10,225 nt of DNA from Candidatus Jorgensenbacteria bacterium CG23_combo_of_CG06-09_8_20_14_all_54_14 (GTDB lineage Bacteria > Patescibacteriota > Minisyncoccia > UBA6257 > GWB1-50-10), in contig PCRZ01000009.1 in NCBI GenBank assembly GCA_002772205.1, positions 1 through 10,225 of the forward strand. Reading direction: 5' to 3'. The notes under the pieces were generated by a model. The model was not told the DNA's origin. It was given only the letters and a program-made list of their open reading frames with translations, and searched no databases. Both the position numbers and the translations under genes were made by a program. Shown here piece by piece: positions 733-10,225 of the stretch (position 1 is its first letter; every line of letters begins with the position of its first letter).

Positions 733-818
733 GAACTGCGATGGCTCGCACCGTTCGTCCCCTCGCCCATCTTCACGGTCGGATTTTTTCATCAATATTA
801 ATCGGTTACAGGGGATGC

Positions 819-866
819 GGGTAGCCACCGGGGGCGCGTGGGGTACGCTACCGCATGCGGTAGCGA
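819..866 (+). repeat. 48-bp palindrome-bearing repeat unit, copy A (inverted partner at 10138-10185)
   Basis: This unit begins gggtagccaccgggggcgcg and ends with the 18-bp palindrome plus GA. The reverse complement of 10138-10185 matches it at 47 of 48 positions by eye; the one difference is position 846 (C here, T in the partner). Such identity outside coding sequence, with unrelated flanks, indicates a dispersed element rather than chance. Just upstream, 815-825 resembles a degenerate half of the palindrome (atgcgggtagc). Confidence 0.9.
847..864. repeat. 18-bp perfect palindrome, copy 1
   Basis: gctaccgcatgcggtagc equals its own reverse complement; here it extends to 20 bp (846-865). It lies 56 bp upstream of the ATG of the TrpR-like gene, where an operator would sit. 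Identical copies are at 1368-1385, 1470-1487 and 10140-10157. All four are outside intact genes. Confidence 0.95.
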
Positions 867-920
867 GATGCGAGTGGGGTTTATTCAGAAGTTAGCCGCG
901 AATTTGCCGTAGTTTTTACC

Positions 921-1352
921 ATGAGCGTGACAGTCAAACTTAATCCGAGGAAGAAATGGGAGGGCCTCGCCTGGCAGAGGTTTTTGGAAACCGCGGAGAA
1001 AGCGGGTTCGGAGAGAAAGTTGAACCTGCTGTTGGATTCGGTGTTGAGCGCGAGCGAGAAGAGGTTGATAGTGAGACGGCTGGCGGTTATGGCTTTGATC
1101 GGACAGGGCAGAACCTACAGGGAAATAGGGAGGCGGCTGTGGCTTTCACCGAGCACAGTGAGCGCGATAAAGAGAGGCATGAGAGGCCGGTCGCCATACC
1201 GGAGCCGGCGGGAGTCGGACAGGGAAGCGCGGAAAAAGAAACGTGGCGCGGAGGGGAAGCCGGTCTCGGCGCACCCTATGATTGAGTATTGGCTCAATAT
1301 GCCGACGATAAGCGGAAAGGGGCGCTGGAAGTTTTTGGACCACCTGCGGTGA
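921..1352 (+). CDS. TrpR/YerC-like helix-turn-helix DNA-binding protein
   Basis: The 143-residue product resembles the TrpR/YerC-YecD family. A helical region (about 33-60, LLLDSVLSASEKRLIVRRL) is followed by a helix-turn-helix (about 64-86) with TYREIGRRLWLSPSTVSAIK, the family's usual G.(S/T)YREI...(V/L)S..TVS.IKR pattern. A basic Arg/Lys-rich stretch (about 85-112) and a C-terminal GKGRWKFL motif follow. Classical TrpR is about 108 residues, so this protein has an N-terminal lead-in and a basic tail. I infer sequence-specific DNA binding; tryptophan as ligand cannot be claimed. Palindromes lie upstream (847-864) and 16 bp after the stop (1368-1385), suggesting autoregulation or a link to that repeat family. 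No Shine-Dalgarno is visible before the chosen ATG. A decayed copy of this gene's 5' part lies at 10104-10225 on the other strand. Confidence 0.75.
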   Translation: MSVTVKLNPRKKWEGLAWQRFLETAEKAGSERKLNLLLDSVLSASEKRLIVRRLAVMALIGQGRTYREIGRRLWLSPSTVSAIKRGMRGRSPYRSRRESDREARKKKRGAEGKPVSAHPMIEYWLNMPTISGKGRWKFLDHLR

Positions 1353-1367
1353 ACATATGGAGAGTTC

Positions 1368-1385
1368 GCTACCGCATGCGGTAGC
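1368..1385. repeat. 18-bp perfect palindrome, copy 2
   Basis: Same 18 bp as copy 1, located 16 bp after the TrpR-like stop codon. It could fold as a 7-bp stem with a CATG loop, but no U-run follows, so it does not look like an intrinsic terminator. Confidence 0.95.
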
Positions 1386-1469
1386 AGGCTAGGAGGAAAC
1401 GGTGGGGGAAGGAGAGAAGGGAAGTAGAAAAGAAGTGGAAAGAGAGAATGGGGAATGTAAAAAAATGGC

Positions 1470-1487
1470 GCTACCGCATGCGGTAGC
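1470..1487. repeat. 18-bp perfect palindrome, copy 3
   Basis: Same 18 bp as copy 1, extending to 20 bp (1469-1488). Its flank GAACT matches the reverse-complemented flank of copy 2, so copies 2 and 3 face each other across the purine-rich core. Confidence 0.95.
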
Positions 1488-1635
1488 GAACTGAGAGGCG
1501 GATGGGAAAGGAAGAAGAAGAGCACGTAAGAAAGAGCGAGCTGGAAGAGAGAAGAGAGTTAGATGCGGAGGTTATGGGGAAATTACGTGGAAGAGAGCCG
1601 CGCTATGAGTTAAGATAAAGCACGATGGGGAAACG

Positions 1636-5229: not shown

Positions 5230-5403
5230 ATGATAGCCGCCACTAAAAATAAGCAACCATTACTATACGAAAAGGAATCTTATCTACTCCGTGGTTTGTT
5301 TATGAAAATTTATAACGAATTAGGGCCAGGGCTTAAAGAAAGTATATATGGAAATGCTTTTGAGGAGTTGCTAAAACAGGAGAGAGTTCCATACAAGAGA
5401 GAA
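5230..5403 (+). pseudogene. Truncated GxxExxY-family coding fragment within the prepilin ORF
   Basis: These 58 codons encode only the first half of a family that is usually about 125-130 residues. Lower GC than the flanks and the adjoining 16-bp repeat suggest the 5' end of a GxxExxY gene plus its upstream DNA landed here and was trimmed to an in-frame junction with the prepilin leader near codon 59. Confidence 0.65.
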
Positions 5404-6249
5404 CCAAGTAGCGAAGCCGGTCAGAGCTTGGTAGAGGCATTGATCGCCTTGAGTATTTTTGTTATTGGAATCGCTACCATTGGTTTCCTGGTTTTAGACG
5501 CGAACGTATCGTCTCGGCAGGGCGTGGAACGAACGCAGGCGACTTTGTTGGCTCAAGAAGGATTAGAGGCGGCCCGCTCCATCCGTGATGCTGATTTTGA
5601 CAATCTTACCGCCGGCAGCCACGGCATTGCGCTTTCCGGGAATAAATGGACATTCTCAGGGACTTCTGATACCCAGGACCAATTCGCTCGAACCATCACG
5701 GTGACAGACATTGATATTGATACGAAAAAGGTTGATGGAATTGTCACTTGGCAATTTACAGAAGCCCGCCAGAATTCGGTTACCCTGACCGATTATCTTA
5801 CCGACTGGAATCAGACGCAGGGTCAAGCCGGGGAATTGACAGTTGATACCAGCAATGCCGCGCTTGCCGGAGGTAATAAACGATTGCAGGGAATCACTAT
5901 TCAAAACACGGGATCAGGCAGTATTACAATAGATAAAATGACAGTGTGGTGGAGCAACGGCCAGCTCGTTAAACAAATCAGGATAGATGGTGCAGACGTA
6001 TGGATATGGAACGGCGTTGGAACTCCTGATGGCAGGCAACCATCCGGCGCGGAGCTTAATATAGGCGATTTTACATTAGCGCAGGGCGCCGGAGTGAAAA
6101 ATATTAATCGTATAGGTTTTAATGGCACCATGGCCGGCGCCGCTTTTATTATCAAATTTATTATGAGCGACGGGAGCACTAAGTACGTTTCAGTTGACTT
6201 TGCGGGCGGTGGGGATGATCAGGAGTTGGTCATCTTTGAACCAAATTAA
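5230..6249 (+). CDS. PulG/PilV-like prepilin with an N-terminal GxxExxY-family fragment fused in frame
   Basis: The 339-residue frame has two parts. Residues about 11-58 match the N-terminal half of GxxExxY proteins (PDDEXK_3-like): LLYEKESYLLRG...IYNELGPGLKESIY, with the naming motif at G34, E37 and Y40. The C-terminal half of that family, which carries the nuclease-like acidic residues, is absent. From residue 61 a normal prepilin begins: SEAG64 | QSLVE69 (Glu at +5), a hydrophobic helix to about 91, then LLAQEGLEAARSIRDADF, typical of PilV/PulG-like minor pilins in these bacteria. A beta-rich C-terminal domain (about 200-339) follows. By my count GC is about 36% in the fused segment and near 48% just after. 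Alternative starts are ATG 5302 or TTG 5368; the latter would give an ordinary short basic leader, but its GAGGAG directly abuts the codon. The pilin part is probably functional. Confidence 0.8.
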   Translation: MIAATKNKQPLLYEKESYLLRGLFMKIYNELGPGLKESIYGNAFEELLKQERVPYKREPSSEAGQSLVEALIALSIFVIGIATIGFLVLDANVSSRQGVERTQATLLAQEGLEAARSIRDADFDNLTAGSHGIALSGNKWTFSGTSDTQDQFARTITVTDIDIDTKKVDGIVTWQFTEARQNSVTLTDYLTDWNQTQGQAGELTVDTSNAALAGGNKRLQGITIQNTGSGSITIDKMTVWWSNGQLVKQIRIDGADVWIWNGVGTPDGRQPSGAELNIGDFTLAQGAGVKNINRIGFNGTMAGAAFIIKFIMSDGSTKYVSVDFAGGGDDQELVIFEPN

Positions 6250-7229: not shown

Positions 7230-7373
7230 CCATGCCCAGTAGTGAAAACTCGATTGGTCCCGCTAAGCGGGGCTGGAAGTATGAGATAAAACACCGCTGA
7301 GTAAAAATCCAAGCAATATCAAAAGGTCGCATTGTATCAAATAAATTAATCGAGTTTCTACTACTGGGCATGG
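7230..7373. repeat. 144-bp inverted-repeat-bounded insert before pilM
   Basis: The arms 7230-7255 and 7348-7373 are inverted copies (24 of 26 positions match; outer sequence ccatgcccagtagt). The unit begins 6 bp after the PilX-like stop and ends two bases past the A of the pilM ATG, so the right arm contains the pilM start codon. The interior has a short GC hairpin (cccgc/gcggg, 7259-7271). No target-site duplication is visible. It could be a MITE-like insert or a structured intercistronic RNA. Confidence 0.75.
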
Positions 7374-10065: not shown

Positions 10066-10101
10066 TCCTCAATTCAGTCACGTACGTGACTGAATTGAGG
10101 A
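10066..10101. repeat. 36-bp perfect palindrome
   Basis: cctcaattcagtcacgt is followed at once by its exact reverse complement, and the outer T/A pair extends it to 36 bp. It lies 33 bp after the membrane-protein stop. On the + strand no T-run follows, so an ordinary terminator is not supported; it could still end or protect transcripts, or be a binding or insertion site. A small ggaaaaa/tttttcc hairpin overlaps its left side (10052-10068). Confidence 0.85.
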
Positions 10102-10137
10102 TAGCGGCTTCCAAAAACCTCTGCCAAGCGAGACCTT

Positions 10138-10185
10138 TCGCTACCGCATGCGGTAGCATACCCCACGCGCCCCCGGTGGCTACCC
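10138..10185 (-). repeat. 48-bp palindrome-bearing repeat unit, copy B
   Basis: Inverted partner of 819-866 with one mismatch. It sits inside the decayed TrpR-like copy, whereas copy A lies upstream of the intact gene, so the same unit has two different local contexts. Confidence 0.9.
10140..10157. repeat. 18-bp perfect palindrome, copy 4
   Basis: Same 18 bp as the three copies near the TrpR-like gene, some 8.6 kb away from the nearest of them. Further half-site-like gctacc/ggtagc strings flank it (10179-10201). Confidence 0.95.
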
Positions 10186-10225
10186 ATACTACCTGCTACC
10201 GGCTAAAACCACAGCAAATTCGCGA

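Follow-up and report, generated by a model that had tools for sequence, protein, structure and literature searches.

The TrpR-like gene and its palindromes in the window

The window, i.e. the whole stretch of 10,225 nucleotides that we analysed, carries a gene encoding a TrpR-like protein of 143 amino acids (921-1352, plus strand) amid copies of an 18-mer palindrome, GCTACCGCATGCGGTAGC. The first copy (847-864) ends 56 nt before the ATG and is a candidate autoregulatory operator; the second (1368-1385) lies 15 nt past the stop codon and the third (1470-1487) is again an exact GCTACCGCATGCGGTAGC. This is the arrangement described by the original prediction, three exact 18-bp palindromes around the gene. 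The prediction also tied a fourth copy to a fragment of the same gene, and this was confirmed: the fourth copy (10140-10157) lies in a minus-strand version of the unit that is partial and internally deleted, next to a gene fragment (10104-10135, minus strand) corresponding to about codons 15-25. The fragment is 91% complementary to 963-994 over 32 nt, 10138-10206 is 86% complementary to 798-866 over 69 nt, and roughly 90 nt are missing between palindrome and gene fragment. The four exact copies in the window compare with a chance expectation of 0.00 (200 shuffles). The whole genome, 508,565 bases in 47 contigs, contains the 18-mer 8 times, versus 0 for the same pattern read backwards, and the 18-mer exceeds chance outside the window as well.

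The palindromes are accompanied by longer repeated modules. The left module of the unit (798-846, plus strand) recurs beside other palindrome copies, at 10158-10206 in the window and, outside it, on contigs 27 and 39. The right module, made of copies 2 and 3 with 84 nt between them, recurs with a longer spacer at C39:10707-10841. Parts of either the left or the right module accompany the 18-mer on contigs 27 and 39.

Some further features were noted. Perfect palindromes of 36 bp at 10066-10101 and at 1839-1874 of L006 share their ends (CCTCAATT/AATTGAGG) but not their centres; one of them adjoins the TrpR-like gene fragment, and they perhaps belong to another palindrome family. An ORF at 5230-6249 combines a PDDEXK_3 match at its start (E 5e-6) with a pilin-type methylation motif (E 8e-4); it may represent a fusion, or a nuclease fragment with read-through into a pilin gene. 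A 26-nt inverted repeat (7230-7255 / 7348-7373, 92% complementary) surrounds 92 nt between pilus genes. Upstream of the unit, a 214-aa PKD-like protein (7-651) resembles by eye an ORF of another genome, G026 (L277). That ORF adjoins a seryl-tRNA-synthetase-like gene, and in G025 it is a TrpR-like unit that adjoins the seryl-tRNA-synthetase-like gene (names assigned by eye in both cases).

The window protein passes the Pfam Trp_repressor cut-off (32.7 bits versus 27), and sequence-profile matches to solved chains include 3kor (E 5e-8) and E. coli TrpR (E 3e-5). It stays below the cut-offs of the NCBIfam models for the trp operon repressor equivalog (TIGR01321, 26.2 bits, cut-off 67.25) and for YerC/YecD (TIGR02531, 18.3 bits, cut-off 42.2). 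TrpR also gave the best Foldseek matches, which were weak (E 0.15 or more). The AlphaFold model was poor from the single sequence (pLDDT 50.6) and reached pLDDT 68.2 with 71 sequences, the tail (111-143) being below 50: the helix-turn-helix, with a recognition helix around S76-P77-S78-T79, is modelled with confidence and the basic C-terminal tail is loose. Pfam and NCBIfam scans of the window protein revealed no convincing nuclease or transposase domain and no Y1 domain; weak, sub-threshold matches to IS21, IS630 and TnsD models fell on or around the helix-turn-helix. Relatives are named in their sources as Trp family transcriptional regulator, Trp operon repressor, YerC or hypothetical protein.

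Paralogs, relatives and recognition helices

The genome of the window (G000) has nine TrpR-like protein matches, the window protein included. Repeats beside each paralog were detected without prior knowledge of the words, and the nine paralogs were found to have eight palindrome words, one of them common to two paralogs: GCTACCGCATGCGGTAGC in the window, GGTGCTACAGTTAACTGTAGCACC beside the two paralogs, GGTGCTCTGTTTAAACAGAGCACC, GGTGCTTTAATTAATTAAAGCACC, GCTATGACATGTCATAGC, GCTAAGTATGACATGTCATACTTAGC, TTGTTATGCTATAGCATAACAA, and, for the ninth paralog, an imperfect relative. The ninth paralog has two palindromes upstream, and the contig ends on its downstream side, hence both-sided copies in eight of the nine. 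Some copies deviate from their word by one or two bases.

To place this genome among its relatives, a profile of the family was used. At E 1e-6 it matched 20 of 42 genomes in the taxonomic family and, in the order, 81 of 244; at E 1e-14, in a draw of 379 genomes from the phylum, it matched 9, of which two (G000 and G221) are within the order. The 13 named type-B loci carry the labels Jorgensenbacteria (4), Brennerbacteria, Paceibacterota, Patescibacteria and Spirochaetia (1 each) or only 'bacterium' (5); the Spirochaetia-labelled locus is perhaps misbinned. Among the matches listed, 149 loci were analysed and five further ones were left out. At E <=1e-14, 131 of the 149 were kept, and dropping 8 with flanks shorter than 150 nt left 123 strong loci in 67 genomes.

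Flanks were compared under a strict rule, which demands a 16-nt palindrome common to both flanks, and under a loose rule, which is a more tolerant version. With flanks of 450 nt, like palindromes were present on both sides of 93 of the 123 strong loci (strict) or 112 of them (loose), and 11 had no like pair even under the loose rule. In the controls, the strict rule was satisfied by 0/2,460 dinucleotide shuffles and 0/109 displaced pseudo-genes, and the loose rule by 4/615 simple shuffles and 0/109 displaced pseudo-genes. The displaced-site control used 300-nt flanks, with which the true sites scored 90/123 (strict) and 110/123 (loose). When the flanks of different paralogs were swapped, they matched in 17 of 196 cases within a genome and in 63 of 1,798 between genomes. 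The pairing of a palindrome with a TrpR-like gene is general in the order to which the genome of the window belongs.

Weaker matches behave in part alike: 10 of 18 pass the strict rule, and four of these (L028, L078, L184 and L186) have CTAG centres, which recall the E. coli trp operator. Other families of the phylum have single-copy relatives, some of which are flanked as well (2/7 strict, 5/7 loose); flanking alone is therefore no proof of mobility.

Co-variation between protein and palindrome was analysed in the 114 of the 131 loci that have a palindrome pair under the strict or the loose rule. Mutual information was calculated with permutations inside the three subfamilies, +1 being the residue that directly follows the conserved Ser in the recognition helix. 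The two highest values of all were those of helix +1 with half-site positions -8 (z 17.8) and -6 (z 13.0). Next came two columns outside the helix, a tail column (+20) paired with -2 (z 10.2) and column -11 paired with -8 (z 8.3), and below these helix +2 with -4 (z 6.4). For the 85 loci of subfamilies B and C, Pro is found with C (40/45), Leu with T (7/8), Arg with G (5/5) and Lys with G (3/3) at -8, Ser with T or G (9/9) at -6, and Gln with G (42/45) and Asn with C (12/12) at -4. The window's own pair, itself a member of the set, fits: Pro77 goes with C at -8 and A at -6, and Ser78 with C at -4.

Bases were then predicted by leaving one genome out at a time and excluding proteins at least 50% identical. 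The base was correctly predicted in 83 of 99 cases at -8 (baseline 61), in 76 of 99 at -6 (baseline 68) and in 79 of 108 at -4 (baseline 23); prediction of -3 from helix +6 was no better than its baseline (55/102 versus 55). With 57 independent pairs, obtained from a tree built without the helix, the top column-position pairs were +1/-6, +2/-5 and +2/-4, the best P of 1.7e-4 failing correction over about 800 tests, and +1/-8 had a P of 0.09. A partial Mantel test gave 0.234 for the helix and up to 0.327 for random four-column sets, and thus did not single the helix out. Since contact residues change in step with the word, the system looks like a partnership of repeat and protein, and we infer from this co-variation that each protein may bind its own palindrome through the recognition helix. 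The original prediction of a dispersed palindrome paired with a TrpR-like regulator agrees with the nine paralogs and their eight words, the 112/123 flanked relatives and the co-varying helix residues.

Setting and dispersal of the palindromes

At the 114 loci, the median distance is 41.5 nt from palindrome centre to chosen ATG and 26 nt from stop codon to downstream centre. A -10-like box was scored when it started 4-12 nt beyond the palindrome core. At a score of at least 7, such a box is present toward the gene at 31% of the 114 upstream copies and away from the gene at 3%, and beside downstream copies at 0-2%; none was seen on 100 sides of dispersed copies (50 of the 52 dispersed sites whose context was examined). 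At a score of at least 6, the values are 51% toward the gene, 13% away from it, 6-13% for downstream copies and 6-8% for dispersed ones. In the window itself, the upstream copy lacks such a box (score 2). The frequent placing of upstream copies at a -10-like box makes autorepression by the TrpR-like proteins likely. It suggests that the upstream copy often resembles an autoregulatory operator, and that downstream and dispersed copies are unlike promoter sites. A role of downstream copies as terminators was considered and rejected: T-runs (at least 5 T in 8 nt) occur at 20% of them on the 3' side versus 24% on the 5' side.

The palindromes are dispersed in several genomes. Exact patterns gave 72 sites in G000: 8 of the window word, 25 of TATGACRYGTCATA, 35 of GTGCTNNNNTTAANNNNAGCAC and 4 of TATGCTATAGCATA. 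By our own count, 21 of the 72 adjoin a TrpR-like gene; by hand count, of the 68 sites of the first three patterns at least 18 are no more than 300 bp from the end of a contig, against an expectation of about 5.5%, so that the repeats probably break the assembly. In G011, 17 TATGAC and 21 TATGCT sites accompany four TrpR-like genes. Of the 12 genomes that have a type-B gene, 11 hold TATGAC palindromes, versus 4 of the 30 others, and 8 hold TATGCT palindromes, versus 0 of 30 (Fisher P 3e-6 and 4e-6, respectively). The original prediction asked whether the palindrome occurs in genomes that lack the protein: TATGCT palindromes were absent from the 30 genomes lacking a type-B gene, and four of these contain one to four TATGAC palindromes. 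Four genomes (G043, G033, G032 and G035) have a palindrome type without a recognised matching TrpR-like gene, possibly as relics or owing to missed genes.

Context was examined for 52 dispersed sites in 40 stretches of four genomes (G000, G011, G005 and G003). Many of these copies are perfect palindromes with the same core, and some have paired outer arms that are specific to the site: at least three extra pairs were counted at 8/18 and 5/16 sites, where 0.28 and 0.25 are expected at one in four per base. Hairpin-templated correction could be the cause of this pairing. Different palindrome families stand side by side in L208, L209 and, imperfectly, L210, as in BIMEs. Two sets of sites have resembling flanks: L207 (1122), L209 (82), L210 (823) and L212 (925) have a similar promoter-like left flank (TATAATG...GGTTTAAG), and L205, L206 and L213 have another one in common (by eye). 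Most of these sites were also picked up in the count of longer flanks given next.

A longer flank common to another site was found at 23 of the 52 dispersed sites (18 of 31 in G000, 5 of 21 in G011, G005 and G003 together), and part of the dispersal therefore concerns longer modules, not the palindrome alone. These flanks would be expected if the units were old immobile duplicates with their operators, the dispersed palindromes being relics of gene copies or of longer modules. The partial copy at 10104-10206 of the window is such a relic, and paralogs of the same genome keep partial DNA similarity to one another. However, 29 of the 52 sites (13 of the 31 in G000) have no flank in common with another, and the 17 and 21 sites of the two types in G011 stand against four genes; we consider this explanation rather unlikely.

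Four pairs of paralogs from the same genome have DNA similarity that continues past the stop codon. It ends at the downstream palindrome in L082/L031, L031/L038 and L065/L081, and just beyond the palindrome of one member but short of the other's in L080/L037; other matches between paralogs that overlap the gene end inside it. Relatives were compared for empty sites (G011 with three congeners; G025 with G026, G010 and G001) at 63-76% identity, and no clean empty site was found in these comparisons, synteny ending near the palindrome and the relatives being too divergent. Carriage by viruses was also considered, and scans of viral contigs with subfamilies B and A gave no relative. With uninformative relatives and empty viral scans, we infer spreading of the palindromes from their copy number, word identity and patchiness.

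Could the dispersed palindromes be operators of other genes, i.e. the regulon of an autoregulated transcription factor family? The Trp repressor fold and the promoter-like position of many upstream copies would fit, as would the outcome of a rough ORF test, in which 31 of the 52 dispersed sites lie between called ORFs (25 tandem, 4 convergent, 2 divergent), 10 more are ORF-less on one side and 11 are inside a called ORF. Against this, 2 of the 52 are between divergent genes and many dispersed copies are perfect palindromes of the same core, some with paired outer arms. The lack of a strong -10-like box on the 50 dispersed copies scored, versus 31% of upstream copies, leads us to reject the regulon as unlikely; the genome-wide promoter operator envisaged in the original prediction is disfavoured by the same result.

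MatP and Noc are conserved chromosome organisers with dispersed sites. A protein that bridges or marks dispersed palindromes in their manner would be compatible with sites that lack strong promoter boxes and with the basic C-terminal tail. Nine paralogs with eight words in a 508-kb genome, and a patchy presence (20/42 genomes at E 1e-6), are unlike a conserved organiser, however, and make such a system improbable. Finally, REP sequences spread in trans by RAYT or IS200-like transposases, with the TrpR-like genes as passengers, appear highly improbable: although the anatomy is that of REP/BIME, Y1 transposases are present in 21 of the 42 genomes of the taxonomic family and the TrpR-like gene of L074 adjoins a broken Y1 transposase fragment, a search of G000 (94.6% complete) with PF01797 (Y1 transposase) found none despite its 72 sites (four patterns), Y1 presence is not clearly linked to the TrpR-like family (11/18 genomes with a strong match, 10/24 without), and the word tracks the TrpR-like helix. 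The fragment of L074 has inverted repeats of its own, as seen by eye.

A proposed REP-like repeat with a TrpR-fold partner

The original prediction had left three readings side by side, a self-spreading repeat, a genome-wide operator and a nucleoid site. We favour a REP-like repeat, and no nuclease domain was recognised in the protein. Our preference is for a REP-like system of repeats with a TrpR-fold repressor as partner, which would be a candidate binder without recognised catalytic domain; we consider this reasonably, if not strongly, probable. The arrangement palindrome, TrpR-like gene, palindrome would belong to a multi-copy family of such units within this order of Patescibacteria. The protein is most likely a dimer with the TrpR fold and would bind its own palindrome via the recognition helix, and in many members the upstream copy, overlapping the promoter of the gene, would permit self-repression. 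The word would have spread to many sites, mostly between genes and unlike promoters, as REP sequences do, and paralogs would have acquired new words, their helices changing accordingly. At dispersed sites the protein is probably a binder that might compact, bridge or shield hairpin-prone sites. Copying might be carried out by host processes acting on hairpins (template switching, repair, conversion) or by another enzyme.

A more specific proposal is that the repeat spreads with a binder that lacks a cutting domain: repressors might keep and protect the palindromes and help to multiply them through host replication and repair, and the units might split into non-interfering specificities. We put this forward tentatively, as a possibility that we would not yet call probable. 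If true, the split specificities in one tiny genome would leave a natural record of a protein-DNA recognition code. The more than 100 protein-palindrome pairs already constitute a natural table of how the TrpR fold recognises DNA. Whereas REP repeats are attributed to a dedicated nuclease, a largely REP-like anatomy is here combined with a repressor fold in a genome, G000, in which no Y1 transposase was found, and how palindromes spread and remain perfect thereby becomes testable without the usual suspect. The host group consists of ultra-small bacteria, in which the TrpR-like genes are framed by a private palindromic word; among the literature matches listed, no title or abstract reported TrpR-like genes with private palindromes.

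With TrpR and the YerC/YecD family, the proteins described here have in common the profile match over the Trp_repressor domain. They differ by their long basic tail, their many copies, the palindromes on both sides and scores below both NCBIfam cut-offs. Repressor/operator co-evolution has reportedly been the subject of a study on the IclR family (PMC8222616). The likeness to GntR and IclR lies in the amino-acid/base co-variation detected by mutual information; their sites are binding motifs of regulons, whereas most copies here are unlike promoter sites. Co-variation of amino acids and bases in repressors and their operators has been found by mutual information (PMC4494728).

The closest comparison is with REP/RAYT systems and BIMEs. 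For RAYTs, two sources provide features for comparison, namely flanking repeats, protein/repeat covariation and repeat abundance that goes with the gene (PMC2817692; further comparison features from PMC3733652). As in those systems, short palindromes are dispersed between genes and the gene is flanked by copies, here at 93 of 123 strong loci under the strict rule. Protein and repeat vary together and abundance follows the presence of the gene, with three or four genomes holding a palindrome type without a recognised cognate gene. As in BIMEs, different repeat families stand side by side. The differences concern the protein and the repeat. No Y1 (HUH) nuclease with catalytic His and Tyr was recognised in the window protein, which has a TrpR-fold helix-turn-helix, and no Y1 transposase was found in G000. 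The palindromes are symmetric and often perfect, and a genome may hold many paralogs and several words.
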